Assembly (NCBI GenBank): GCA_014192425.1
Contig: BJHK01000007.1
Coordinates: 124,001 to 188,000 of the forward strand
Direction of reading: 5' to 3'
Length of the DNA: 64,000 nucleotides
DNA from: Planctomycetia bacterium
GTDB lineage: Bacteria; Planctomycetota; Planctomycetia; Pirellulales; UBA1268
The position numbers and the translations under genes are program-made. Positions 22,158 through 60,802 of this stretch are shown piece after piece; position 1 is the first letter of the stretch; every line of letters begins with the position of its first letter. The notes beneath the pieces are model-generated. The model did no database searches. It worked only from the letters and a program-made list of their open reading frames with translations, and was not told the DNA's origin.

Positions 22158-22224
22158 AGGAAGTCGTTCGCATCGCCCTATCCGATTTTCGGGTCGGGTC
22201 GATCCGGACGACGCCAAACACCGT

Positions 22225-23694
<1,470 letters not shown>

Positions 23695-23756: not shown

Positions 23757-24002
23757 CTAGGGGCATTCGCCGGGGTCGTCCTCCGCCGTGGTCGCCTTGG
23801 CGGCCAGCCAGTTCTTCAGGACCTCGACCGGGTACAGCACCACGTTGCCGATGCGGACATGCGGCACGCCCTCGGTGCGGGTCCAATCCCAGAGGAGCCG
23901 CTCCGAAATCCCAAGTACCCGGGCGGCGTCACGTGGTCGCAGGGCGAGCGGATCGACCACGCGCTCCGGCGTGGACAGCGTGAAAGGTGATTGACGCATC
24001 AT
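23757..24002 (-). CDS. Excisionase-like helix-turn-helix protein
   Basis: An 81-residue MerR/Xis-type DNA-binding protein: LALRPRDAARVLGISERLLW is the helix-turn-helix, then DWTRTEGVPHVRIGNVVLYPVE is the wing that fits 'select phenotype by site' helix-17 proteins. It lies 62 bases upstream of the integrase start on the same strand and overlaps the preceding wHTH gene by four bases. The position suggests that it directs excision. Confidence 0.75.
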   Translation of the reverse strand: MMRQSPFTLSTPERVVDPLALRPRDAARVLGISERLLWDWTRTEGVPHVRIGNVVLYPVEVLKNWLAAKATTAEDDPGECP

Positions 24003-31404: not shown

Positions 31405-34400
31405 ATGAGCATGGCCACCATCAAAGACATCCTCCTCATCGACCCGTCCCGGGAGCCGCTGGTCAACAACGGCCAAGCCCGCCTCGCGGACCAGACCGAC
31501 GAGAAGGTCGTCGCCGAGCTGCGCGGCGAGCTGAAGATGTTCGTCTGCGAGGGTGAGTTCGCCCGCGGCCTCGACTGCATCCTCTCGGAGTACCTCGGCA
31601 ACCTCGGCAACTCGTCGCAGAAGGCCGTCTGGGTCAGCGGCTTCTTCGGCAGCGGCAAAAGCCACCTCCTCAAGATGCTCGCCCACCTCTGGGCCGACAC
31701 GCCCTTCGCCGACGGCGCCACGGCCCGCGGGATCGTGCCCGAGATGCCGAAGGAGATCCGGGCCCACTTCACCGAACTCGACAACGCCGGCCGCCGCCAT
31801 GGCGGACTGTTCTCCGCCGCCGGCACGCTCCTGGCCGGCTCCCACGACCGCGTCCGCGAGACGGTCCTCGGCGTGATCCTGCGTGCCGCCGGGCTGCCGG
31901 AGCAGTATCCCGTCGCCCGGTTCGTCCTCTGGCTCGAGCGGGAAGGGGCTCTCGACAAGGTGAAGAAGCACGTCGAGGCCAACGGCGGCGTGTGGGAGAA
32001 GGAACTCGCGAACCTCTGGGTGAGCACGCGGATCCGCAAGGCGATTCTGGCGTGGGACAAGAACTTCGCCCCCAGCGAGGCCGACGTTCGGGCGGCGCTC
32101 AAGCAGCAGTTCCAGGAGCAGACCGGCGACCTGACCACGCCGGAGTTCATCGGCCTGGCCAAGGACGTCCTCCTCCGCCACGCCGCCAACACCTCCAACA
32201 ACCCCGAGCAGCTGCCCTGCACCATCATCCTGCTCGACGAGGCCCAGCAATACATCGGCGACTCGCACGACCGCTCGACGGTCTTCACCGAGTTGGCAGA
32301 GGCGCTCACCAAGCAGTTCGACGGCCGCATGCTGCTCGTGGCCGCCGGACAGCAGTCGCTCAACGACGTCGAACTGCTCCACAAGCTGATGGACCGGTTC
32401 GTCGTGAAGGTGCCGCTCTCCGACACCGACGTCGAGACGGTCACCCGCAAGGTGTCGCTCCGCAAGAAGCCCGGCGCGATCCCCACCGTCACGAGCACCG
32501 TCGAGTCCCACGGCGGCGAAATCGCCCGCCACCTTCAGGGCACGAAGATCGGGCCGCGCACGAGCGACGACAAGACGATCGTGGCCGACTACCCGCTCCT
32601 GCCGGTCCGCCGTCGGTTCTGGGAGGAGTGCTTTCGTCAGATCGACGCCGCCGGAACGAAGAGCCAACTGCGGTCGCAGCTCTCGATCATCCACGACGCC
32701 GTCGGCAAGCTCGCCGACGACCGGCTCACGGCCGTCATCCCGGCCGACGCCCTCTACGACTCGCTCAAGGCCTACATGCTCGGCACGGGCGTTCTCCTGC
32801 GGGAGATCCACGAACGGATCGAGGAGCTGGGCGTGCCGGGCACCACCGACGCCGTTCTCGCCAAGCGGATCGCCAGCCTCGTGTTCCTGATCTCGAAGCT
32901 GCCCACCAACCTCGGGGCCGATCTCGGCGTCCGCGCGTCCGCCGCCCACATCGCCGACCTGCTCGTCAGCGATCTGGCCGCCGACAACCACGTCCTGCGG
33001 CAGAAGGTCGCCGAGTCGCTCGAAAAACTCGTCGAGAGCGGCCTGCTCATGAAGGTGGACGACGAATACCGGATGCAGACGCGGGCCGGATCGGAGTGGC
33101 TGGCCACCTACAACAAGAAGCAGCAAGAGATCCGCGGCAGCGAGCCGAAGATCCAGGAGGTCCGCAACAACCTCGTCTATGCCGCCATCGACGAGGCCGT
33201 CCGCGGGGTGCGCATCCTCCAAGGCCTGCCGAAGGAGCCACGCGACCTGTCGGTAGACCGCGACGCCACGCCGCCCACCCCCGGCGGTCGCGGCCTAACC
33301 GTCTGGGTCCGCGACGGCTGGTCCGCTGCCGAGAAGGATGTGACGGCGGCTGCCCGGAAAGCCGGAGCCTCGTCATCGCTCATCTACTCGTTCATTCCCA
33401 AGGCCTACGCCGACGACCTCAAAACCGCGATCGTCAACTCCGAGGCCGCCAACAGCACGCTCGAAACCTACGGCCCGCAGTCCGAGGCCGAGGGCCAGGA
33501 GGCGATGCGGGCGATGACGAGCCTGCGGGATAGCGCCATCAACAACCGCGACCGGCTGATCCGCGACATCGTCAGCGGCACGAAGGTCTGGCTCGGCGGC
33601 GGCACCGAACAGCTCCACACCACGCTCGCCGAGAAGCTGAAAGTCGCCGCCGAGGCTGCTGTCGCCCGCCAGTTCAAGGATTTTTCCGCGGCCGACAAGG
33701 CGTCGTGGGACGTCGTGATGAAGCGGGCGAAGGAGGGCACCGACAAGCCAATGGAGCCGATCGGGCATACGGGCGCGGTCGAGACCCACGCCGTCTGCGT
33801 CGAGGTGCTCGGCCGCACGGCCACGGGCGCGACGGGCAGCGAAGTCCGCTCACAGCTCCAAGACCCACCCTTCGGCTGGCCGAAGGACGCAATCGATGGC
33901 GTGCTCGTCGTACTCGTGGGCGCCGGGCACCTGTCGGCCAAGCTCAACAACGCGCCCATAGCCGCGGCCCAACTCGACCAGAACAAGATCACAAAGACGA
34001 TCTTCACGCGCGAAACGAAGACCATCTCGATGGCCGACCGGCTCAAGGTTCGCGGCACGCTCGCAAAACTCGGCTTCAAGCCCAAAGGCAACGATGAGGA
34101 CGGTCCGCTTGCCGCCGACTTCCTGAAGAAACTCGCCGAAATAGGGCGGCATACCGGTGGCGAGGAGCCGCTGCCGCCGCACAAGTCGGTGGTGTTCATC
34201 GAAGACATCCAGCGGCTCACCGGCGTCGAGATGCTCGCCGAGATGGTCGCCAAGAAGGCCGACCTCGATACCGCCGCCGATGTGTGGCCCGCGCTTGCCA
34301 CGCTCGCCGAAACCCGCCTCGCCGCCTGGGACGAACTCCACAAGCTCTTCGACCACGCCAAGAACGAGCCGGGCGCTGCCACCATCAACGCCGACATCGA

Positions 34401-34890
34401 GGCTGTCCGCACCGGCCGCCTGCTCCTCGATTCGTCCGACCCGCTGCCGCCGATCCGCGCCAAGATCGCCGAGATCCTCCGCAAGCGGCTCAAGGACACC
34501 TTCGACGACCACAAGGCCACCTTCGACCGCGAGGTGGCGCAGCTCACCGCCACACCCGTCTGGGGCCAGCTCCCGGCCGACAAGCAGACGGCCATCCTCG
34601 CCGATATCGGCCTCCGCGAGCCTGACGCCGTGGACGTCTCCACCGACGCGACCATTGCCGCTGCCCTCGCCGAACGGTCGATCGACGCCCGCCGCAACGC
34701 CGCCCTCGCCGTGCCCACGCTCGCTGGCCAGGCCCTCCGCAAGGCCGCGGCCACCGTCGAGCCCCAGGCCCGCAGCGTCACGGTCGAGAAGACCACGCTC
34801 CGCAACGGCGACGACGTCCGCGAGTGGGCCAAGCGGGCCGAGAGCCAGCTGCTCGAGGAAGTGAAGAAGGGCCCCGTGCTCGTCTCGTAA
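31405..34890 (+). CDS. brxC: BREX P-loop ATPase BrxC
   Basis: A 1161-residue AAA-like ATPase of BREX (earlier PglY). Walker A GFFGSGKSHLLK is at about residues 79-90, and Walker B IILLDEAQQ is near 275-280, followed by the long C-terminal helical region normal for BrxC. It interacts with the methylation/defence complex. It is encoded between brxB and pglX with small gaps, and the codon use is uniformly GC-rich. Confidence 0.92.
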   Translation: MSMATIKDILLIDPSREPLVNNGQARLADQTDEKVVAELRGELKMFVCEGEFARGLDCILSEYLGNLGNSSQKAVWVSGFFGSGKSHLLKMLAHLWADTPFADGATARGIVPEMPKEIRAHFTELDNAGRRHGGLFSAAGTLLAGSHDRVRETVLGVILRAAGLPEQYPVARFVLWLEREGALDKVKKHVEANGGVWEKELANLWVSTRIRKAILAWDKNFAPSEADVRAALKQQFQEQTGDLTTPEFIGLAKDVLLRHAANTSNNPEQLPCTIILLDEAQQYIGDSHDRSTVFTELAEALTKQFDGRMLLVAAGQQSLNDVELLHKLMDRFVVKVPLSDTDVETVTRKVSLRKKPGAIPTVTSTVESHGGEIARHLQGTKIGPRTSDDKTIVADYPLLPVRRRFWEECFRQIDAAGTKSQLRSQLSIIHDAVGKLADDRLTAVIPADALYDSLKAYMLGTGVLLREIHERIEELGVPGTTDAVLAKRIASLVFLISKLPTNLGADLGVRASAAHIADLLVSDLAADNHVLRQKVAESLEKLVESGLLMKVDDEYRMQTRAGSEWLATYNKKQQEIRGSEPKIQEVRNNLVYAAIDEAVRGVRILQGLPKEPRDLSVDRDATPPTPGGRGLTVWVRDGWSAAEKDVTAAARKAGASSSLIYSFIPKAYADDLKTAIVNSEAANSTLETYGPQSEAEGQEAMRAMTSLRDSAINNRDRLIRDIVSGTKVWLGGGTEQLHTTLAEKLKVAAEAAVARQFKDFSAADKASWDVVMKRAKEGTDKPMEPIGHTGAVETHAVCVEVLGRTATGATGSEVRSQLQDPPFGWPKDAIDGVLVVLVGAGHLSAKLNNAPIAAAQLDQNKITKTIFTRETKTISMADRLKVRGTLAKLGFKPKGNDEDGPLAADFLKKLAEIGRHTGGEEPLPPHKSVVFIEDIQRLTGVEMLAEMVAKKADLDTAADVWPALATLAETRLAAWDELHKLFDHAKNEPGAATINADIEAVRTGRLLLDSSDPLPPIRAKIAEILRKRLKDTFDDHKATFDREVAQLTATPVWGQLPADKQTAILADIGLREPDAVDVSTDATIAAALAERSIDARRNAALAVPTLAGQALRKAAATVEPQARSVTVEKTTLRNGDDVREWAKRAESQLLEEVKKGPVLVS

Positions 34891-34905
34891 CAAGCGCCAT
34901 CATCC

Positions 34906-37900
34906 ATGCCACCACTCGATCGCACGCTCCGCCGGGGCCTCGAAAACGCCGTGAAGGCTGCCCGCCGGGTGGCCGAACAGGCCGCAACGAAGGCGCTCGA
35001 ATCGCTCGCCGTCGGCCACCACGAACCGTGGCCGGGCCAGCCGACCGCCGACCGCACGCTCCGCGTCAAACTCCGCGCCCGCGGCCGGCAACTCGGCGAC
35101 GCCCTCGATCCCAAAACAGGAAAACAAGCCACCACGCGGCTCGTCCACGAGGTCGCCTACGAGCACTGGCACCGGATGCTCTTCGCGCGGTTCCTCGCCG
35201 AGAACGACCTGCTCATCGAACCCGACTCCGGCGTCGCCATCAGCCTCGACACCTGCCGCGAACTGGCGAAGGAACGCGGCACCGACGTCTGGATGCTCGC
35301 CAGCCGATTCGCCCAGACGATGCTGCCCGAGATCTTTCGGGCCGACGATCCCGTGCTCGCCGTGGAACTGGCCCGCGAGGACCAGCTTGAACTGGAGAAG
35401 ATCGTCGCCGACCTCGGCACCGACGTCTTCACGGCGTCCGACTCGCTCGGCTGGTGCTACCAGTTCTGGCAGGCGGAGAAGAAAGATTCCGTGAACGCCT
35501 CGGGCGTGAAGATCGGCGCCGACGAGCTGCCCGCCGTCACGCAGCTCTTCACCGAGGACTACATGGTGGATTTCCTGCTCGACAACACGCTCGGCGCGTG
35601 GTGGGCCGGGAAAGTGCTCGCGGCCGATCCGTCGATCGCCGCGTCAGCCACGAGCGAAGACGACCTCCGCAAGGCCGTGTCGCTGCCGGGCGTACCGTGG
35701 GCCTACCTGCGGTTCATCAAGCCTGACGACGGCGAAGGCGCGGGCACGTGGCGACCGGCCGCGGGCACGTTCGACGGCTGGCCACGCGCCGTCAAGGATC
35801 TCACCTGCCTCGACCCCTGCATGGGCAGCGGCCATTTTGTTGTCGCGATGTTCGACCGGCTCGTTCCGCTGCGGATGCGCGAAGAGGGCCTGAGCGAGAC
35901 GGCGGCGATCAAGGCCGTCATCCGCGACAACCTCTATGGGTTGGAGATCGACCCCCGCTGCACGCAGATCGGCGCCTTCAACCTCGCCCTCGCAGCCTGG
36001 CGGCGGGTCGGCCACATCCCCCTGCCGCCCATGCACATCGCTTGCTCCGGCCTCGCGCCAAACGCCACCGAGGACGAATGGGTGGCGCTAGCCGAGGGTA
36101 ACTCGCGGCTCGAAGAAGGTATGCGGCGGCTCCACGGGCTGTTCAAGGACGCCCCGGTGCTCGGCAGCCTCATCAACCCAGGGGCCGAAGGCTACGCGGC
36201 GTTCGAGGCGTCATTCGCCGAGTTGCAGCCGATTCTGGGGAAGGCGCTCGCGAAGGAAGGCAGCGACGACGCCGAGCACGAGATGGCGGTGACGGCCCGC
36301 GGCGTGGCGAAGGCGGCGGAGATTCTTGGGCGACAGTTCACGCTCGTGGCGACGAACGTGCCGTATCTGGCGAAAGACAAGCACGCGCCGCTGCTCGCTT
36401 CTCGTTGTGAATCGAGATTCCCGGCGGCCCAGCGCAATCTGGCGTACGTATTTCTGCAATGCGGACTGGAAATCGCCCGCGCGGGAGGGACCGTTGCCAT
36501 GGTCACTCTTCAAAACTGGTTGTTTCAACCGGCATATCCCGAGCTGCGGAAAGCGATATTGAGCCAAAGCGACTGGAATCAAGTCGTCCGGTTGGGGGCG
36601 AAAGGATTCCAAACGCCGATGTGGGACTTCAACGTGATGCTTTTCATCACATCAAAGTCGCTCCCGACTGACTCATCCTGTCTCCCATCACTCAATGTTG
36701 AAGGCGCTCGATCCCCGGAAGAGAAGGCTCGGTCATTGGTCACCACACAAGTGACCACGTCGAACCAGCTCGGGCAAATGCGAAATACTGACTGCATCGT
36801 GCTGGAGGATCTGACGCGGTCCGCCATGACGACGCTTGGTGACTACATGACGACGGCCCAAGGCCTTGTCACTGGCGATGACAACAAATTTGTCAGGCGA
36901 TGGTGGGAATCGCCGCTCCTTAGCGATGAGTGGACTTGGTTGCACCTTCAGCCTCGAAACACGGAACCGTATTCCGGGCGTGTAGCCACAATCCGGTGGC
37001 AAGGCGGATCGGGTGATCTGCACAAGCGATCCAAGGCTCACAACTTTCCACCTCCTGAGTTCTTGGGGGCGGCAGGTGTCGCCATCCAAAGGATGGATCT
37101 CAATGCGACAATTTTCTCTGGCAATGTTTTCGGTGACCACCTAGCGCCCCTCGTACCACGAGATGTATCGACGCTTCTTCCCTTGTGGTGTTTCTGCGAG
37201 TCAGCCGATTTTACAGCCGAAGTTCGCAAAGTAGACGCGGCGCTAAAGGTGGCGGTGGGCTCTTTCGCCAAGGTGCCATTCGATCTTCCTCACTGGGAAA
37301 CAGTTGCCGCCGAACGTTACCCGGCAGGCATGCCAGTTCCACACACCTCCGACCCCACCCAGTGGCTCTTCAACGGCCACCCGAAGGACTCCGACAGCCC
37401 GCTCCACGTCGCCGTCGCCCGGCTCGTCGGCTACCAGTGGCCGCGGCAGACGGGCTCGGAGTTTCCCGACTGCCCGGCGCTCGGCGCCGACGGTCTCGAA
37501 CGGCACGCCGACGCCGACGGGATCGTCTGCCTGTCGAGCGTCCGCGGTGAGCCAACGGCGGCGGATCGGCTCCTCTCCCTGCTGGCCGACGCCTACGGCT
37601 CCGACTGGTCGGCTGACCTCCGCGACAAGCTGCTCGCCGACGTGGACGCCAATGGAAAAACCCTCGACGACTGGCTCCGCGACTCGTTTTTCGAGCAGCA
37701 CCTGAAGCTGTTCCACCAGCGGCCTTTCGTCTGGCACATCTGGGACGGCCTCCGCGACGGGTTTCATTGCCTCGTCAACTACCACCGGCTCGCGGGCCCC
37801 GATGGGCAAGGCCGCCGCACGCTCGAAAAGATCGCGTACGAATACCTCGGCGACTGGATCACCCGGCAGAAGGCGCAGCAGGCGGCCGGCGAGGAAGGCG

Positions 37901-38352
37901 CCGACGCCCGTGTGGCCGCCGCCGTTCACCTCCAAGAACAGCTCGCCAAGATCATCGAGGGCGAGCCGCCGTTCGACATTTTTGTGCGTTGGAAGCCGCT
38001 CGCGGAACAGCCGATCGGCTGGGATCCCGACATCAACGACGGCGTGCGGCTCAATATCCGCCCGTTCATGACCGCCCGACCGCTCGGGGCGAAGGCCAAG
38101 AAGGCGTGCATCCTCCGCGCGGCCCCCGGCATCAAGTGGGACAAGGACCGCGGCAACGAGCCCGACCGCCCCAAGGACCAGTTCCCATGGTTCTGGACGT
38201 GGGATGAGGAATCGCAGGATTTCCTGGGCGGCACGAAGTTCGACGGCAAGCGACACAACGACCTCCACTACACCCGTAGGGCGAAGGAAGCTGCGCGGGC
38301 GAAGGCGGGCGGCACGAGCACGAAGCCCAAGGCTGCAGAGGCCCGGGCATGA
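34906..38352 (+). CDS. pglX: BREX adenine-specific DNA methyltransferase PglX
   Basis: PglX methylates the host BREX motif at adenine N6 to mark self DNA and sets the specificity of the system. It has 1148 residues. SAM motif I DPCMGSGHF starts at residue 303, and motif IV is TNVPYL with N484-V-P-Y487 instead of N-P-P-Y. The helical N-terminal part and a C-terminal domain are normal. From about 36380 to 37330 the DNA drops from roughly 70% to about 50-57% GC in sampled lines, with T/A-ending codons, just where the target-recognition region should lie. It overlaps pglZ by four bases. Confidence 0.92.
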   Translation: MPPLDRTLRRGLENAVKAARRVAEQAATKALESLAVGHHEPWPGQPTADRTLRVKLRARGRQLGDALDPKTGKQATTRLVHEVAYEHWHRMLFARFLAENDLLIEPDSGVAISLDTCRELAKERGTDVWMLASRFAQTMLPEIFRADDPVLAVELAREDQLELEKIVADLGTDVFTASDSLGWCYQFWQAEKKDSVNASGVKIGADELPAVTQLFTEDYMVDFLLDNTLGAWWAGKVLAADPSIAASATSEDDLRKAVSLPGVPWAYLRFIKPDDGEGAGTWRPAAGTFDGWPRAVKDLTCLDPCMGSGHFVVAMFDRLVPLRMREEGLSETAAIKAVIRDNLYGLEIDPRCTQIGAFNLALAAWRRVGHIPLPPMHIACSGLAPNATEDEWVALAEGNSRLEEGMRRLHGLFKDAPVLGSLINPGAEGYAAFEASFAELQPILGKALAKEGSDDAEHEMAVTARGVAKAAEILGRQFTLVATNVPYLAKDKHAPLLASRCESRFPAAQRNLAYVFLQCGLEIARAGGTVAMVTLQNWLFQPAYPELRKAILSQSDWNQVVRLGAKGFQTPMWDFNVMLFITSKSLPTDSSCLPSLNVEGARSPEEKARSLVTTQVTTSNQLGQMRNTDCIVLEDLTRSAMTTLGDYMTTAQGLVTGDDNKFVRRWWESPLLSDEWTWLHLQPRNTEPYSGRVATIRWQGGSGDLHKRSKAHNFPPPEFLGAAGVAIQRMDLNATIFSGNVFGDHLAPLVPRDVSTLLPLWCFCESADFTAEVRKVDAALKVAVGSFAKVPFDLPHWETVAAERYPAGMPVPHTSDPTQWLFNGHPKDSDSPLHVAVARLVGYQWPRQTGSEFPDCPALGADGLERHADADGIVCLSSVRGEPTAADRLLSLLADAYGSDWSADLRDKLLADVDANGKTLDDWLRDSFFEQHLKLFHQRPFVWHIWDGLRDGFHCLVNYHRLAGPDGQGRRTLEKIAYEYLGDWITRQKAQQAAGEEGADARVAAAVHLQEQLAKIIEGEPPFDIFVRWKPLAEQPIGWDPDINDGVRLNIRPFMTARPLGAKAKKACILRAAPGIKWDKDRGNEPDRPKDQFPWFWTWDEESQDFLGGTKFDGKRHNDLHYTRRAKEAARAKAGGTSTKPKAAEARA

Positions 38353-40727
38353 GCACGGCCACCTCCACATCTCCGACGCTCACCACTAGCACGCTCGCCG
38401 ATGCCGTGCTCGAATCACTCGCGCGGCTCGTCTCCACGCCCGACGGTGAGGTGCCGCCCGCCGCGATCCTCTGGCCCGACGCCGAGGGCCAGTGGAAGAG
38501 CCTCGTCGCGCTGCTGCGGGGCCGCGTGCCGCACCTCTACGAACTCGGCACCTTCTCCCCCGACGACCACATCGGCCCGGCGATCTGGCTCGTCTGCGCC
38601 GTCGCTCGCACGCTCTCCGACCATTCGCCGCCCGCGGGCACTGTCCCGATCCTCTACCTGCCCGGCGTCGCTCGGCAGGAACTCCGTGCCGGTGCCGACT
38701 GCCCCATGCTCCACCAGCCGCTCGTGGAACTCCAGTATCGCGGGAAGGTGTGGCACCAACGCAACGGCCGCGACTGGACGATCGAGGCGTTCCTGACGAG
38801 CAAAGACGCCCTCGACCTCGACGTGGCCCGCGATGCCGCCAGCCAGCAGGCGATGCTCCGCGCGATCGACCGGCTCGCCGATGAGCCGATCGCGGCGCTC
38901 ACCGGGAGGCGGCTCGACGTCGGCTTCTTCGAGTCGCTCTCCGTCAGCGACATCGAACGTGAAATCCTCGCCTGGATGGCCGACGCCGACGAGTATCGGA
39001 AGACCAAGAAGGCCGACGCTGCCGCGTTCGAGACGTTCGTCGGCAAGATGGCCCGCGAATACGGTGTCGATCCAACCAAGCAGTCGCCCGCCGAAGCCGC
39101 GAAGTGCCTGGCCCGCGGAGAAACGGCGTGGGATCCGATCTGGCGCCGCTATGCCGACGCCCCGCAGGCGTATCCCAAGATGCAGGTGCTCATGGCCGCG
39201 GTGCCGGAGCAGGAGTTTTCGATTCAGTGCCTCGACCGCAGCCCACGCAGCAATCTGCAGTCGGAATCAACGCTCCGCTCGGACCTCGGGAAACTGCTCT
39301 CGCTCCCGCATGCCGACACCTGTGCCGCCGTCACCAAGCTCGATCGTGAACACCGCGAGCGGCTCGACCGTCCGTGGACCAAACTCGGCGAGAGCCTGCT
39401 CGCCGAAGTGCTCGTGCCGCTCGCGAAGTTGGCGACCGCCGCGACTTCACCGCTCGGCGGGCCCGACGTGGCGACAATCGCCCGGGCCTACGCCAAGGGC
39501 GGCTGGGACGTGGACCGGCAGGCGATGCGGGCGCTGGCCGTCGCCCAACACTCCGCCGACGCCGAACTCGTCGGTCAGGTTGTGCGGGCGGTCTACCTGC
39601 CGTGGCTCGACAAGACGGCGGCGCATTTCCTATCGGTAAGCCAGGGCGGCGCCGCGATCGCCTCACTCGTCACTGCCGTGCAGCCGGAACGGGAGCAGTG
39701 CCTCGTATTCGCCGATGGCTTGCGGTTCGACGTCGCCGTGTCCCTCCAGGAAAAGCTCGAGGCCCGTGGGCTCGTGGCTCGGCTCGGCCACCGGATCGCC
39801 CCGCTGCCGAGCGTGACCGCCACGGCCAAGCCCGCGGTGATGCCCCTGCCGGCCAGCGGCTACGGTTCGATCGTGGGCGGCCAGATGCCCGAGACGTTCC
39901 TGCCGCAGGTGCGGACGGCCGCGGGCCAGAAACCTGCCACCACGAATGAACTCCACGACGTGCTCTCCGAGCTGCGCGTCGCCGTCCTCGCCGCCGACGA
40001 GACCTCCGACGCCGCCACCGCCGAGAAGGGCGGCTGGACGGAGGTGGGGCGGATCGACGAACTGGGCCACAAGCTCGGCGCGGAACTCGCCGGCTCCCTC
40101 GACGAACAGGTGGAGCGGATCGCCCGCCGCGTGGCCGACCTGCTCGACGCGGGCTGGACGCGGGTGCGGGTCGTCACCGACCACGGCTGGCTACTCGTGC
40201 CCGGCGGCCTTACGAAGGTCGAAGTCCCGAAGTCGGTCGTCGAATCGAAGTGGTCCCGCGCTGCCGCAGTAAAAGGCTCGTCGCAGGTGACGGTGCCGGT
40301 CGTGGGATGGCACTGGAACGATGCCGACCGCGTGGCCACACCACCGGGGGCTGGTGCGTTTCGGGCGAGCGAGGCCTACGCACACGGCGGCATGAGCCCG
40401 CAGGAGTGCGTGACGCCGGAACTCATCGTTGAGCGGCTCAGGCCCGCGGAGACGACCTCGATCACGAACATCCGCTGGGTCGGAATGCGGTGCCGCGTGT
40501 CCGTGGGTGGCGGCGTCTCTCCACTCTTCGTGGACCTGCGCACTACCGACCGCGACCCAGCCTCGACCGTCGTCGGCGGCCTGAAGCCCTACGACGCCAA
40601 GAAAGACGAGGCCGCGATGGTCGTGGCCGACGACAGCCTCGAATCGAAACCCGCCGTCGTGGTCGTGCTCAACGCCGACGGCACCGTCCTTGATCGCATG
40701 AAGACCACCATTGGAGGCAAGACATGA
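38349..40727 (+). CDS. pglZ: BREX phosphatase-like protein PglZ (type B-like)
   Basis: A 792-residue alkaline-phosphatase-superfamily protein of BREX. Metal-ligand-like motifs are ADGLRFD (D456) and VVTDHGWLLVPGG (D611, H612). The long N-terminal helical part (residues 1-430) and the shorter length compared with classical type A PglZ suggest the type B form. It overlaps pglX and brxL by ATGA on each side, so the three are co-translated. Confidence 0.9.
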   Translation: MSTATSTSPTLTTSTLADAVLESLARLVSTPDGEVPPAAILWPDAEGQWKSLVALLRGRVPHLYELGTFSPDDHIGPAIWLVCAVARTLSDHSPPAGTVPILYLPGVARQELRAGADCPMLHQPLVELQYRGKVWHQRNGRDWTIEAFLTSKDALDLDVARDAASQQAMLRAIDRLADEPIAALTGRRLDVGFFESLSVSDIEREILAWMADADEYRKTKKADAAAFETFVGKMAREYGVDPTKQSPAEAAKCLARGETAWDPIWRRYADAPQAYPKMQVLMAAVPEQEFSIQCLDRSPRSNLQSESTLRSDLGKLLSLPHADTCAAVTKLDREHRERLDRPWTKLGESLLAEVLVPLAKLATAATSPLGGPDVATIARAYAKGGWDVDRQAMRALAVAQHSADAELVGQVVRAVYLPWLDKTAAHFLSVSQGGAAIASLVTAVQPEREQCLVFADGLRFDVAVSLQEKLEARGLVARLGHRIAPLPSVTATAKPAVMPLPASGYGSIVGGQMPETFLPQVRTAAGQKPATTNELHDVLSELRVAVLAADETSDAATAEKGGWTEVGRIDELGHKLGAELAGSLDEQVERIARRVADLLDAGWTRVRVVTDHGWLLVPGGLTKVEVPKSVVESKWSRAAAVKGSSQVTVPVVGWHWNDADRVATPPGAGAFRASEAYAHGGMSPQECVTPELIVERLRPAETTSITNIRWVGMRCRVSVGGGVSPLFVDLRTTDRDPASTVVGGLKPYDAKKDEAAMVVADDSLESKPAVVVVLNADGTVLDRMKTTIGGKT

Positions 40728-42778
40728 CGCTCGTGCTCGACCGACTCGATGAAGTGGCCTCGAGCGCCTTCGACGGCTACCTCGTCCGCAAGGACCTCGT
40801 GCGGAGGTACGCCAAGGAATACCCCGTGCCCAGCTACGTCGTGGAGTTTCTGCTGGGCCGGTACTGCGCCACGACCGACCCCGAGGAGATCGAGCAGGGT
40901 CTGGGAATCGTCACCCAGCAGCTCGCCGACCGCACCGTCCGCACGGGCAACGAGGAACTCTTCAAGAGCCGCGCCAAGGAGCAGCGGCAGGTAAAACTCA
41001 TCGACATCGTGCGGGCCCGGCTCGACGCCAAGAACGACTGCTACGTGGCCGAGTTGCCGAGCCTGGCCCTGCGTGACGTGCGGATCCCCGACGATCTTGT
41101 CCGCGACAACGAGCGAATGCTCACCGACGGGTTCTACGCCGAGGTGACGCTCGCCTACGACAGCGTGATCGCATCGCAGCAGGGCGGCCGGGCGTTCGGC
41201 ATCGAGGCCATGCGGCCGATCCAGATGTCGAAGTCGGACGTGCTCGAGGCCCTGCAGCGCGGCCGTCGCACGTTCTCGACCGAGGAGTGGAAGAAGTTCC
41301 TGATTCGCTCGATCGGGCTGGAGCCAGACGCGCTCGACGAAAAGGCGATCCGTGTGCTGCTCCTGCGGATGGTGCCCTTCGTGGAGCGGAACTACAACCT
41401 CGTCGAACTCGGCCCCCGCGGCACCGGCAAGAGCCATCTCTTCCAGCAGATCTCTCCCTACGCCCACCTGATCTCGGGCGGCAAGGCGTCGGTGGCCAAG
41501 ATGTTCGTCAACAACGCCACCGGCCAGAAGGGCCTGGTCTGCCAGTACGACGTCGTCTGCTTCGACGAGGTGTCTGGCATCTCCTTCGACCAGAAGGACG
41601 GCGTCAACATCATGAAGGGCTACATGGCCAGCGGGCAGTTCAGCCGCGGCAAAGAGAACATCCGGGCTGACGGCGGCATCGTGATGGTCGGCAACTTCGA
41701 CGTGGATGTAGACCAGCAGCAGCGGATCGGGCACCTGCTCAGCCCGCTACCGCCGGAGATGCGGTCCGACACGGCGTTCATGGACCGGCTGCATGCCTTC
41801 GCGGCGGGCTGGGATTTCCCGAAACTCAAGCCCACCGACCACCTGACGAACCACTTCGGCCTTGTGAGCGACTTCCTGAGCGAATGTTGGAGCCACCTGC
41901 GGACGACGAGCCGGGCGACGGTGATGTACGAGCGGGTCCACCTCGGCGGCGCTCTTTCGGGCCGCGACATCGAGGCGGTGAGCAAGACGGTGAGCGGCCT
42001 GACGAAGCTGCTCTTCCCCGATCCCGAGATGCCGGTGCCGGACGAGGACCTGGAGTGGATGGTGCGGCTGGCGCTCGAATCCCGCCGACGGGTGAAGGAG
42101 CAACAGAAGCGGCTTCTCAAGAGCGAGTTCCGCAACACCCACTTCAGCTACGTCATGGGCGCCGAGGGCGTGGAGCAGTTCGTGGCCACGCCGGAGTTGC
42201 ACAGCGACGAGGCGATCGAAAGCGACCCGTTGCCGCCGGGGCAGGTCTGGGCGGTGAGCCCGGGCGGCCCCGATTCCGAGCCGGGCCTCTACCGGATCGA
42301 GGTGACGGTAGGTCCTGGGAGCACGGTGCGGATCCTGAACCAACCGGTCCCGGCCGGATTCCGTGAGAGCGTGCGGATCGGTGAGCAGAACCTGTACACG
42401 CGGGCGAAGGAGCTGGTGGGAGACCGGGACCCCCGCGCCCACGAGTTCTCGCTCCAACTGCGGGCGATGGACGCCGACAAGAACGGCGCCGGACTGGGCC
42501 TTCCGGTGCTCGTGGCGATGTGCAGCGCCCTCCTCGGCCGCAACACCCGCGGCGGCACGATCCTGATCGGCCCTTTGAACCTGGGCGGCTCGTTCGAGTT
42601 GATCCCCAACGCCCAGCGGATCGCGGAGCTGGCGGTCGACAAGCAGGCCGGCACGGTGCTGATGCCGGTCGCCGCCCGGCGGCAGTTGGCCGACCTGCCG
42701 GACGACGTTTGGACCCGGCTGAACATCGAGTTCTACAAGGACGCCGCCGACGCGGTGTTCAAAGCCTTGGTGGAGTAG
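40724..42778 (+). CDS. brxL: BREX Lon-like AAA protein BrxL
   Basis: A 684-residue AAA+ protein that forms ring complexes on DNA. Walker A GPRGTGKSHLF is at residues 230-240, and the Walker B-like VVCFDEVSG follows near 285. The C-terminal Lon-protease-like domain (residues about 500-684) has the fold landmarks LRAMDADKNGAGLGLPVLVAM and GPLNLGGSFEL, but the catalytic Ser (normally in GPSAG) and the Lys after GG are missing. A proteolytic role is therefore unlikely; the domain is probably structural. Confidence 0.92.
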   Translation: MTLVLDRLDEVASSAFDGYLVRKDLVRRYAKEYPVPSYVVEFLLGRYCATTDPEEIEQGLGIVTQQLADRTVRTGNEELFKSRAKEQRQVKLIDIVRARLDAKNDCYVAELPSLALRDVRIPDDLVRDNERMLTDGFYAEVTLAYDSVIASQQGGRAFGIEAMRPIQMSKSDVLEALQRGRRTFSTEEWKKFLIRSIGLEPDALDEKAIRVLLLRMVPFVERNYNLVELGPRGTGKSHLFQQISPYAHLISGGKASVAKMFVNNATGQKGLVCQYDVVCFDEVSGISFDQKDGVNIMKGYMASGQFSRGKENIRADGGIVMVGNFDVDVDQQQRIGHLLSPLPPEMRSDTAFMDRLHAFAAGWDFPKLKPTDHLTNHFGLVSDFLSECWSHLRTTSRATVMYERVHLGGALSGRDIEAVSKTVSGLTKLLFPDPEMPVPDEDLEWMVRLALESRRRVKEQQKRLLKSEFRNTHFSYVMGAEGVEQFVATPELHSDEAIESDPLPPGQVWAVSPGGPDSEPGLYRIEVTVGPGSTVRILNQPVPAGFRESVRIGEQNLYTRAKELVGDRDPRAHEFSLQLRAMDADKNGAGLGLPVLVAMCSALLGRNTRGGTILIGPLNLGGSFELIPNAQRIAELAVDKQAGTVLMPVAARRQLADLPDDVWTRLNIEFYKDAADAVFKALVE

Positions 42779-42788
42779 GGAGGCCGCC

Positions 42789-44573
42789 GTGCAAATCGAC
42801 CCCATGGTGTCGCTCGCCCATGCGATTCACAGCCGGCCGCGGCGTTACGCGCTGCTGCTGGGATCGGGCGTGTCCAGGGCGGCAGGGATTCCCACCGGCT
42901 GGGAGATACTCGGCGAACTCATCGCGCGGGTGCGGAGCCTCGAAGGTGCGGATGGCGACGACGACAACGTGAAGTGGTTTACGAAGCGTTTCGGTGAGGC
43001 CCCAGACTACTCACGGGTTGTCGAGCGGCTGGGTCAGACTGAGTGGGAACGTCAAGAGATGCTTCGCGGGTTTTTCGAACCCGCTGCCGATGGCCGGGGA
43101 GCACACGACAGGAAGCCAACCGCTGCCCACCGAGCGATCGCCCGCCTCGTGAAGGGTGACTTCGTCCAAGTCATCGTGACGACGAACTTCGATCGACTAG
43201 TGGAGACGGCTTTGGTCGATGAGGGAATCCACCCGAAGGTCATCTCCTCCGAACACCAAGTCGACGGGATCGTGTCATTGGTTCACGAGAAGGTCGTCGT
43301 CTTCAAGCTTAACGGCGACTACCGGGACCCATCCATCCGAAACACCGCCGGCGAGTTGAGCAAGTATGACCCAGAAACCACACTATTTCTGAACCACATC
43401 TGCGAGTCTTACGGCCTCGTCGTGTGCGGGTGGTCGGGAGAATGGGATCTCGCTCTTCGCGTGGCTTTGGAGGCGACCAAGGCGAGGCGATTCTCGATGT
43501 TCTGGGCGAGTCGTCGCGAACCAGTGGGCCACGCCCTTTCTCTCGTGCGCACGCGAGAAGCGGAAGTCGTTCTGGGGATGGATGCCGACACGTTCTTTGA
43601 TGACCTAGCCGGCAAGGTCCTCTCGCTTCAGGAAGCAGCCACCGCACATCCGAGGTCGCTTCAGATTCTTGCAGCGGAGTCCCGCCGACTCGTCCGCGTC
43701 GGGGAGGACGTGCCCCAGCTTCAGAGAACTGTACAGGCGGTTGTCGAGCGAGCCAGGGCGGCACTGGTCGAAGCGGTCCGCGTCGAGGCGCCCAAGCCTC
43801 TGCCCGCGACCGCGGACTGGATCAACTTTTCGAATCGCCAGTTGGGCGAGGTATACGCGGTGTGTATGCCGGCGGCGCGCTGGGCCGTCGGAAGGCAAGT
43901 TCCGATCCTACAGGAGGTTGTCCAGCGACTACATGAAGGCCCTGCGGTTCCGTCGAATCACGTCGTGCCTGAGGAATCGTACTGGGCAGTGCCGTCGTTT
44001 CTGGCGTTTCATATGATCGGCGCGACGATGGCGGCAGGTCGTAACTGGCCGGCGCTGTTTGAGTTTGTCGCCGGGGCGCGGGTCAAAACCAGGAATGGCT
44101 TCTCGCCGTACGTAGTCGGTCTGGATTGGGGACACGTTCAGAATCATTTCGCTGAAGCGTTCGGCTCCAGCGGGCGTGGGCCGGCCGCGAGCCGATGGCT
44201 CTTCGATCAATGGAATGCCGTTGGCACTGGCGAGGTGCCGAGCGTCCAAGATCGCGACGAAGCCTTCCTTCGGTTTGAGCTGGCTATCGCGATCACGCAC
44301 CGCGCTTTGACGGTGCCACCATCGGGCATGAACGATCGGAAGGGTGTGTACATCCGCGACGATACGCCCCCTTGGATGCTGTCAGGACTCTACAATTGGA
44401 GAGCATCGTGGGGGGGAGGTGAGCGACAATTTGTGGACGAGCTACAGGAAGACCAGAGGTTCACCCTTGCCCTCCAGGAGTTCGTTTCGTCCCTGAGAGA
44501 GCCGGTGAGCGTGCAGTCGCTCTACGACTACCTTCAGTCTTGGCTTCAGCGCACCCGGCAGGGAGCTGGATGA
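42789..44573 (+). CDS. SIR2-like domain protein appended to the BREX operon
   Basis: A 594-residue protein with an N-terminal SIR2-like NAD-binding fold: LLLGSGVSRAAGIPT at residues 22-36, the TTNFD motif at 131-135, then FKLNGDYRD around 172-180, where the usual catalytic His of KLHGD is replaced by Asn175, and VCGWSGEWDLALR. The C-terminal 320 residues have no recognised domain. The GTG start at 42789 has GGAG nearby and lies 10 bases after brxL, so it is in the operon. Codon use is less GC-rich than in BREX, suggesting a later acquisition. Probably an abortive defence effector or a regulator. Confidence 0.8.
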   Translation: MQIDPMVSLAHAIHSRPRRYALLLGSGVSRAAGIPTGWEILGELIARVRSLEGADGDDDNVKWFTKRFGEAPDYSRVVERLGQTEWERQEMLRGFFEPAADGRGAHDRKPTAAHRAIARLVKGDFVQVIVTTNFDRLVETALVDEGIHPKVISSEHQVDGIVSLVHEKVVVFKLNGDYRDPSIRNTAGELSKYDPETTLFLNHICESYGLVVCGWSGEWDLALRVALEATKARRFSMFWASRREPVGHALSLVRTREAEVVLGMDADTFFDDLAGKVLSLQEAATAHPRSLQILAAESRRLVRVGEDVPQLQRTVQAVVERARAALVEAVRVEAPKPLPATADWINFSNRQLGEVYAVCMPAARWAVGRQVPILQEVVQRLHEGPAVPSNHVVPEESYWAVPSFLAFHMIGATMAAGRNWPALFEFVAGARVKTRNGFSPYVVGLDWGHVQNHFAEAFGSSGRGPAASRWLFDQWNAVGTGEVPSVQDRDEAFLRFELAIAITHRALTVPPSGMNDRKGVYIRDDTPPWMLSGLYNWRASWGGGERQFVDELQEDQRFTLALQEFVSSLREPVSVQSLYDYLQSWLQRTRQGAG

Positions 44574-59913: not shown

Positions 59914-60141
59914 CTACCCCTCCGGCTGCCTTGTGGATTGGTGGGCCAAGTCCGCGAGCACTCGCGCCAGGACGGCCTCCCTGGCCGCCTCCGGGATCGC
60001 CATGCCCGCGACGAGGATGACCGCCCGGGCCAGCAGTTCCACCCGATCAGGCGAAAGTGCGTCGTATCGTGCGTCGCAGCCGGACGTGACCTCCGGGTTT
60101 GCCGCGCGAGACACAGGTTGTTCGCTCGCTGTCCCCGCCAT
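59914..60141 (-). CDS. Small protein encoded at the right end, start codon in attR
   Basis: A 75-residue helical protein (DALSPDRVELLARAVILVAG, then AAREAVLARVLADLAHQ). Its ATG at 60141 lies inside the attR core (GCCAT on the plus strand). The gene is therefore cut from or joined to its upstream DNA by recombination. Two TGCGTCG motifs lie in its 5' part. No function is known. Confidence 0.55.
   Translation of the reverse strand: MAGTASEQPVSRAANPEVTSGCDARYDALSPDRVELLARAVILVAGMAIPEAAREAVLARVLADLAHQSTRQPEG
60058..60078 (+). repeat. Putative right arm-type sites (TGCGTCGCA motif pair)
   Basis: TGCGTCGTA at 60058 and TGCGTCGCA at 60070 have the same 12-base period as the pair near attL (22412 and 22424) and the pair in the old integrase scar (60380 and 60392). 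Confidence 0.5.
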
Positions 60142-60143
60142 TT
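60112..60143 (+). repeat. attR core with imperfect T-arm copy
   Basis: The 15-base core CTGTCCCCGCCATTT at 60129-60143 is identical to the tRNA end. CACAGGTT at 60112-60119 repeats the T-arm start of the tRNA, with nine unmatched bases between the two parts where the tRNA has six. So attR is a changed copy of the tRNA 3' end. Confidence 0.85.
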
Positions 60144-60145
60144 TC

Positions 60146-60182
60146 AGCCCGCCCGGCCCTCCTGGCCCGGGCGGGCTTTTTC
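60146..60182 (+). terminator. Terminator hairpin outside attR
   Basis: AGCCCGCCCGG at 60146-60156 pairs exactly with CCGGGCGGGCT at 60167-60177, followed by TTTTCT. A terminator directly after a tRNA 3' end copy suggests the original terminator of tRNA-fMet, displaced 38 kb by the island. Confidence 0.75.
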
Positions 60183-60289
60183 TTGCGCGGGCCCGCCCTC
60201 CAGGCGGGCAGTCTTGCGTTGCCATCCATGGCCCCTGCCGGTTGTTTTTTTGCGCGGCCTCCTGCCGCGGGCCAGTTTTGAAAACTGGC

Positions 60290-60620
60290 GTGATTTCCGA
60301 AGAACACGCTGTAACCCCCTAGGCTGCAGCGGGTTCTGGCGTGTTTTGCGGCTCCGTGCATTTCGGTGCGGACGCCTGCTGCGTCGCAATTCGCGTCGCA
60401 CTCCGACGAACCGGTCTGGGAACGAGGACCGTCGATGGTCTCGTCAGCGTGTGGCTCCGCTGCGATCGCCGCAGGATCCGTTTGCTCCCGGACAGGGGAG
60501 GCATGCTCGGCGGCCGCGACCGCGGGCGTACCGCCCGCCACCACGCTCTCGAAGTGGTGCTCCCGCGACATCAGGGGGTTGCCCATGCCCTGAGAGGCGG
60601 CGTTGCTGGCACGTGAAGAC
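60290..60620 (-). pseudogene. C-terminal remnant of a second tyrosine integrase
   Basis: The minus strand encodes NPLMSREHHFESVVAGG, matching HYLMSREHHFEHVVSGG of the intact integrase, followed by a Thr/Ala-rich tail including CDANCDAAG (intact gene: CDAYCAAPA). Nucleotide similarity continues (TTCCGAAGAAC, GGGTTCTG). The catalytic Tyr codon and everything before it are gone. This is the scar of an older element in the same site. Confidence 0.8.
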
Positions 60621-60802
60621 AGGATGTCGAAAACGCAGCCAGTATCGAGTGAACGAAGGCCGGGAAGGCCGAAGTGAACGTCCGCCGAGCGGGGCATGGG
60701 CAACCCCGAACAGTCGGAGCGTTCTGTCCACTATTGGATGCTCCCGGTAGTATCTTTAATAACTACGAGAATCCCGGCGCTCACTCACGACATTTTCACC
60801 CC

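Follow-up and report, generated by a model that had tools for sequence, protein, structure and literature searches.

The island and its borders

The window, by which we mean the whole 64,000-bp stretch of DNA that was analysed (G000:C7:124001-188000), comes from an assembly of 70 contigs and 3.98 Mb. It carries an element of about 38 kb that lies between a tRNA-Met gene and a second copy of the tRNA 3' end (Table 1). Read from the left, the element begins with an outward-reading tyrosine integrase, followed by an excisionase-like HTH gene. A hairpin like the one past attR is found directly 3' of element-free tRNA-Met genes in relatives (compared in G050, at L174), and the right border of the element can therefore be fixed at this point. 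BREX-type genes (AAA, Eco57I/N6_Mtase, PglZ, BrxL), and then a SIR2-like gene, lie in the element at 31405-44573. A search of genome contigs for related loci returned one strong relative, a Planctomycetia contig.

Pfam identifies the integrase as a tyrosine integrase with its catalytic domain, and an AlphaFold (AF2) model predicts a b-b-b-a N-terminal domain (residues 2-58, mean pLDDT 89) ahead of helical and catalytic parts. As a whole, the model matches XerA, Tn1549 Int and full-length lambda Int (1z1b, 1z1g). The N-terminal domain matched no Pfam arm-binding family, and its model taken alone gave no significant match in the PDB (Foldseek best E 0.18, a dsRBD; VIA best Z 4.6). The integrase reading frame passes through the P' array into the antisense strand of the tRNA, ending AGTGFEPVTSRL; integrase relatives at other tRNAs likewise run into antisense tRNA, with ends such as GLEPPTPSV and RQGSNLRPRL. 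The protein adjoining the integrase scores above the Pfam cut-off for HTH_17, and below the NCBIfam cut-off for an "excise" domain.

Table 1. Features of the att regions and adjoining genes, in positions of the window
Feature	Position	Strand	Basis or remark
tRNA-Met (cat), target gene	22224..22299	+	ARAGORN; 22278-22298 = GTTCGAATCCTGTCCCCGCCA
Tyrosine integrase, 478 aa	22258..23694	-	Pfam, AlphaFold model
attL core identity block CCTGTCCCCGCCA, tRNA 3' end	22286..22298	+	sequence
Three ~10-bp units (TGCGAGGGCA CGCTGTCCCG CGCGGACCCC) ahead of the P' array	22379..22408	+	sequence; lag-10 peak in relatives
P' arm copy 1, TGCGTCGCC (putative)	22412..22420	+	
P' arm copy 2, TGCGTCGCA (putative)	22424..22432	+	
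P' arm copy 3, TGCTGCGCA (putative)	22435..22443	+	
P' arm copy 4, TGCGTCGCA (putative)	22447..22455	+	
81-residue HTH_17 / excisionase-like protein, candidate RDF	23757..24002	-	Pfam, NCBIfam
P arm copy 1, TGCGTCGTA (putative)	60058..60066	+	
P arm copy 2, TGCGTCGCA (putative)	60070..60078	+	
attR core GTTCGCTCGCTGTCCCCGCCA	60120..60140	+	begins 62 bp past the start of the P pair
Terminator-like hairpin past attR	60143..60190	+	marks the right border of the element
Remnant of an integrase tail from an older element, the "old scar"	60274..60658	-	tblastn
Pair left over from the P' array of the older element (TGCGTCGCAATTCGCGTCGCA)	60380..60400	+	pattern search

Copies of the motif in the window and the genome

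The exact 9-mer TGCGTCGCA occurs four times in the window, always on the forward strand (22424, 22447, 60070 and 60380). Shuffled windows contain a mean of 1.48 matches, and 5 of 100 shuffles reach four or more; the lone 9-mer is therefore weak evidence. The spaced form TGCGTCGCA-N3-TGCGTCGCA, with up to three mismatches allowed, is found on the forward strand at 22412, 60058 and 60380 (one mismatch each) and at 22435 (two mismatches), each place having a near-palindromic twin on the minus strand. Its chance mean is 0.20, and none of 100 shuffles attained the observed count. A preliminary description had reported the motif pair at three places, near attL, near attR and in the old scar; their common orientation and spacing hold good, with the amendment that one copy in each pair is degenerate (22412 TGCGTCGCC, 60058 TGCGTCGTA, 60392 CGCGTCGCA). 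At attL, the copies given at 22412, 22424 and 22447 are real, but that at 22447, listed there as an extra one, is half of a second pair with a copy at 22435 that had been missed. attL therefore carries a four-copy array with 12/11/12 spacing, and attR and the old scar carry one pair each.

The genome-wide count proposed in the preliminary description found the pair to be infrequent elsewhere. With at most one mismatch, TGCGTCGYA-N3-TGCGTCGCA has three matches in 3,979,160 bases, all of them in the window, and the reversed control pattern has none. When TGCGTCGCA-N3-TGCGTCGCA is searched at two mismatches, the genome yields 10 matches: four in the window, four at att sites of a tRNA-Asn island on contig C6, and two elsewhere (C3 and C27).

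Immediately ahead of the P' array, the three units of about 10 bp are candidate sites of a second protein, possibly the RDF. Such a second set of ~10-bp TGCG repeats also stands beside the 12-bp set at L101, L113 and L118.

The distance between the attR core and the pair in the old scar is 238 bp. The attL array of G047 lies 236 bp past the tRNA, beyond a similar terminator, and we read the scar as the truncated and decayed left end of an older, G047-like element. Relics that lie past the tRNA terminator rather than at the core, in the form of integrase tails or arrays, were also seen at L077 (G047), L175 (G057) and L166 (G009).

Both ends of sister elements

An integrase relative is present at E 1e-20 in 40 of the 72 genomes of the family. 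At 26 integrase-tRNA loci (29 before dereplication), the sequence after the tRNA matches itself most strongly at lags of 12 (z 14.1) and 23 (z 15.3); lesser peaks occur at lags 10 (z 5.5) and 11. The array motif varies among these relatives (TGCGTCGCA, TGCACTGCA, TGCGCCGGA, TGTGCCGGA and others), and the 12/11/12-bp layout recurs at tRNA-Met, Val, Phe, Pro, Ser, Arg and others, some loci showing two copies only. Across the phylum, the exact pattern TGCGTCGGATTCTGCGTCG matches in 3 of 392 genomes, our own among them. In G362, which like G432 lies outside the family, the two matches are 46.6 kb apart and form both ends of a single tRNA-Ala element encoding an integrase relative with 34.5% identity; in G432, one match is an array by tRNA-Gln with an integrase and the other stands by tRNA-Lys without one.

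The opposite end of the elements was sought independently of the motif. A search with the core only returned 17 attR-like sites of tRNA-Met (the non-AAT sites), from which the unrelated look-alikes L159 and L161 and the contig-edge site L162 were dropped. Fourteen sites remained: the pair stands at exactly -62 in 12 of them, one has a variant pair and one a single copy. Across those 12, likeness is highest in the motif columns (0.913) and lower in the flank (0.775) and the spacer (0.679). A blind attR search gave the same picture: a tRNA was present in 12 of 14 integrase stretches and a second 15-mer core in 7 of these 12, and all seven elements with a second core (tRNA-Met, Val, Lys) have a 12-bp pair 67-70 bp ahead of it; at the other five loci, no second core was found within the stretch examined. 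The preliminary description had put the pairs forward as arm-type site candidates and suggested looking for them in related islands, and the rarity of the pair, its conservation in sister elements and its fixed distances from the core support that candidacy.

The two arms also correspond within an element. In 10 elements with both ends, the P pair resembles its own P' array (18.2 of 21) more than the arrays of others (14.9), with a permutation p of ~1e-5, which becomes 4e-5 when two related Met elements are left out. The element's own P pair ranks first or tied first in eight of the 10, and third in G047-Met and G011-Asn. This likeness of P and P' may also stem from descent.

Over 14 integrases, arm sequence and N-domain distance show no co-variation (r 0.10, p 0.27). 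Among pairs of integrases with a catalytic identity of at least 0.89, to which the closer comparison was limited, N-domain (identity 0.58) and arm motif both differ between the window and G008 (catalytic identity 0.91), and both agree in L010/L013 (0.89) and L029/L030 (0.99); in L029/L031 (0.99) and L030/L031 (0.98), the N-domain differs (0.73) and the arm motif is the same, so that these pairs point neither way.

tRNA-Asn arrays and toxin-antitoxin units

Attachment sites at tRNA-Asn were compared in a sample that is a subset of those found, drawn from the collected loci; 48 sites, less nine tRNA variants, one short site and four near-duplicates, left 34. A 12-bp pair, defined as a self-match of at least 7 of 9 at lag 12, stands at -70 from the core in 29 of these 34 attR-like sites, compared with 0-2 sites at other lags. 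By sequence, the pairs can be sorted into classes, TGCGTCG (A), TGAGTCG (B) and TACGTCG (C), plus rarer forms; the sample is partly enriched, as some loci had been chosen for TGCGTCG, while the TGAGTCG and TACGTCG classes were not sought by that pattern. Judged by eye, the class is the same at both ends of three Asn elements that have a P' array adjoining the tRNA (G000 A/A, G011 B/B, G048 C/C). The tRNA-Asn sites also carry a ~10-bp repeat signal (5.15 at lag 10, versus 3.37 when shuffled). The second tRNA island of our own genome (L242, G000:C6:24353-36631) consists of a tRNA-Asn followed by three further cores, delimiting units of 2.2 kb with a sulfatase-like ORF (by eye), 794 bp with HicA/HicB, and 9.3 kb.

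Most core-to-core units at tRNA-Asn are short, 23 of 34 measuring 1.5 kb or less. From Pfam searches on representatives, nucleotide similarity and reading of ORFs, 22 of these 23 were judged to be toxin-antitoxin-like pairs; the exception, a 1061-bp unit of G043, has no obvious pair. The Pfam families involved are HicA/HicB, PIN, HEPN/nucleotidyltransferase, DUF2442, DUF4160 and Phd/PIN, and we take DUF2442/DUF4160 to form a toxin-antitoxin pair as well. No integrase was seen among the ORFs of the short units inspected, and a clear P' array was present only in that of G011.

Several units are far more alike between genomes than a host gene beside tRNA-Met. G042 and G050, which are different species, have in common a unit with 99.46% identity over 930 bp, and the identity is bounded by the cores; the host gene beside tRNA-Met is 67.9% identical between the two. 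G057 and G059 share 714 bp at 99.0%, versus 68.3% for the same host gene, and G043 and G057, of different genera, share 708 bp at 95.9%, versus 62.0%. These comparisons fit unit-wise transfer.

Discussion

We suggest that the motif copies very probably serve the tyrosine integrase encoded beside attL as its arm-type (P and P') sites. In the circular element, the arms would flank the core, the P pair starting 62 bp before GTTCG...CCTGTCCCCGCCA and the four-copy 12/11/12-bp array starting 113 bp past the end of the tRNA. The integrase would hold the core DNA by its catalytic and SAM-like domains and the arms by its small N-terminal domain, and the resulting intasome would insert the 38-kb BREX-bearing island into tRNA-Met. 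From the sequence, we infer that the integrase rather than an RDF binds the copies and that recombination needs them; the integrase is favoured because the motif is present on both arms, as a pair on one and as a four-site array on the other. Points on the other side are the lack of a family or fold match for the N-terminal domain, the missing co-variation of that domain with arm sequence, and the five loci at which no second core was found within the stretch examined.

The strongest competitor is that the 12-bp copies are sites of an excisionase/RDF, for example the 81-residue HTH_17 protein, and that the integrase uses others, such as the ~10-bp TGCG repeats. Binding of an RDF to att DNA beside arm sites is known (PMC11963761). 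An excisionase-like gene does adjoin the integrase, and on both arms the 12-bp set has a distinct set of ~10-bp repeats next to it, so that two proteins probably bind the att region. However, RDF sites are usually confined to one arm, whereas a motif on both arms, in a pair and a four-site array, is what integrase arm sites predict, and helically phased 10-bp units would seem better suited to a cooperative RDF. We consider this assignment of the two repeat sets unlikely.

Much less probable is that the copies are shared by descent or protein coding alone and have no binding function. The two integrase tails are homologous, and this can account for the motif at attL and in the scar, as the preliminary description had allowed; it had also noted that the attR copy falls outside that explanation, and the flanks of attR and attL are indeed unrelated. 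A conserved reverse-strand frame (CDAxCDA) runs across the P pair, whose conservation could thus be partly at the protein level. In the integrase frame, however, the copy at 22424 reads ATH and that at 22447 reads CDA, so that the repetition is one of DNA and a pure protein repeat was rejected. Against shared descent or coding there is also the better conservation of the motif than of its flanks, and the constant position of the pair at tRNA-Asn while its sequence class changes. Chance recurrence of a short GC-rich word is hardly credible and was rejected, for although a lone 9-mer should turn up 1.5 times per window, chance does not account for the spaced pair, which at one mismatch is confined genome-wide to att sites.

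Arm-type binding by the integrase would be ordinary in kind. Phage lambda Int has arm sites P1, P2 and P'1-P'3, and the island resembles lambda in having two arms with unequal numbers of sites and a predicted integrase that matches full-length lambda Int; it differs from the lambda arrangement in motif and spacing, and no IHF or Xis sites were identified on the island. The attP of IntS from ICEMlSymR7A of Mesorhizobium has five P/arm-type sites with the consensus TGKTGGTATC, and all five are reported as necessary for efficient integration (PMC11963761). The likenesses are short arm repeats around the core, an integrase gene beside attL and a separate RDF; the differences are the motif, the pair plus 12/11/12 array, and the position of the sites within the integrase frame.

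The arm-type sites are thus well supported, while the layout of arm-marked toxin-antitoxin units at tRNA genes is less ordinary. We hypothesize that these units could be moved by integrases acting in trans. In its full form, the proposal is that an arm pair and a tRNA core together signal the end of a unit in a cassette system. The units, ~0.8-1.2 kb long, mostly consist of one toxin-antitoxin pair with no integrase, and most of them lack a P' array; integrases acting in trans would insert them serially at tRNA-Asn (and tRNA-Met), and the arm class (TGCGTCG, TGAGTCG, TACGTCG) would decide which integrase moves which unit and so keep array neighbours apart. We offer this tentatively and lean slightly against it.

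Integron cassette arrays also carry toxin-antitoxin genes. Another parallel is provided by the additive flexible genomic islands of Methylophilaceae, which are described with repeated tRNA-Lys 3' ends (PMC10872708). Like these islands and like integron arrays, the units here are tandem, bounded by a short repeated attachment sequence, and small in cargo. Unlike both, each unit carries at its right end a putative integrase arm pair, set at a constant distance from the tRNA core, and the short units are mostly toxin-antitoxin pairs. Integron cassettes are recognized by attC folding sites and an integron integrase; the units here end in tRNA 3' cores instead. No description of such arm-marked tRNA units was found in the literature searched, which is no proof that they are unpublished.

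A practical border rule follows this layout: a core, a pair ~70 bp ahead of it, and a 12/11/12 array ~113 bp past the tRNA. This rule shows where elements inserted at tRNAs start and end in this planctomycete family, even for units far from any integrase gene. If the arm class does fix the acting integrase, tandem arrays at one tRNA would offer a natural way to test how similar elements keep from mobilizing one another; if the cassette proposal is true, the toxin-antitoxin units would amount to integron-like cassettes that use tRNA attachment sites.

As a separate observation, two composite units of G057 (L235, 5679-6859 and 6859-8336) each resemble two toxin-antitoxin units fused with loss of the core between them.
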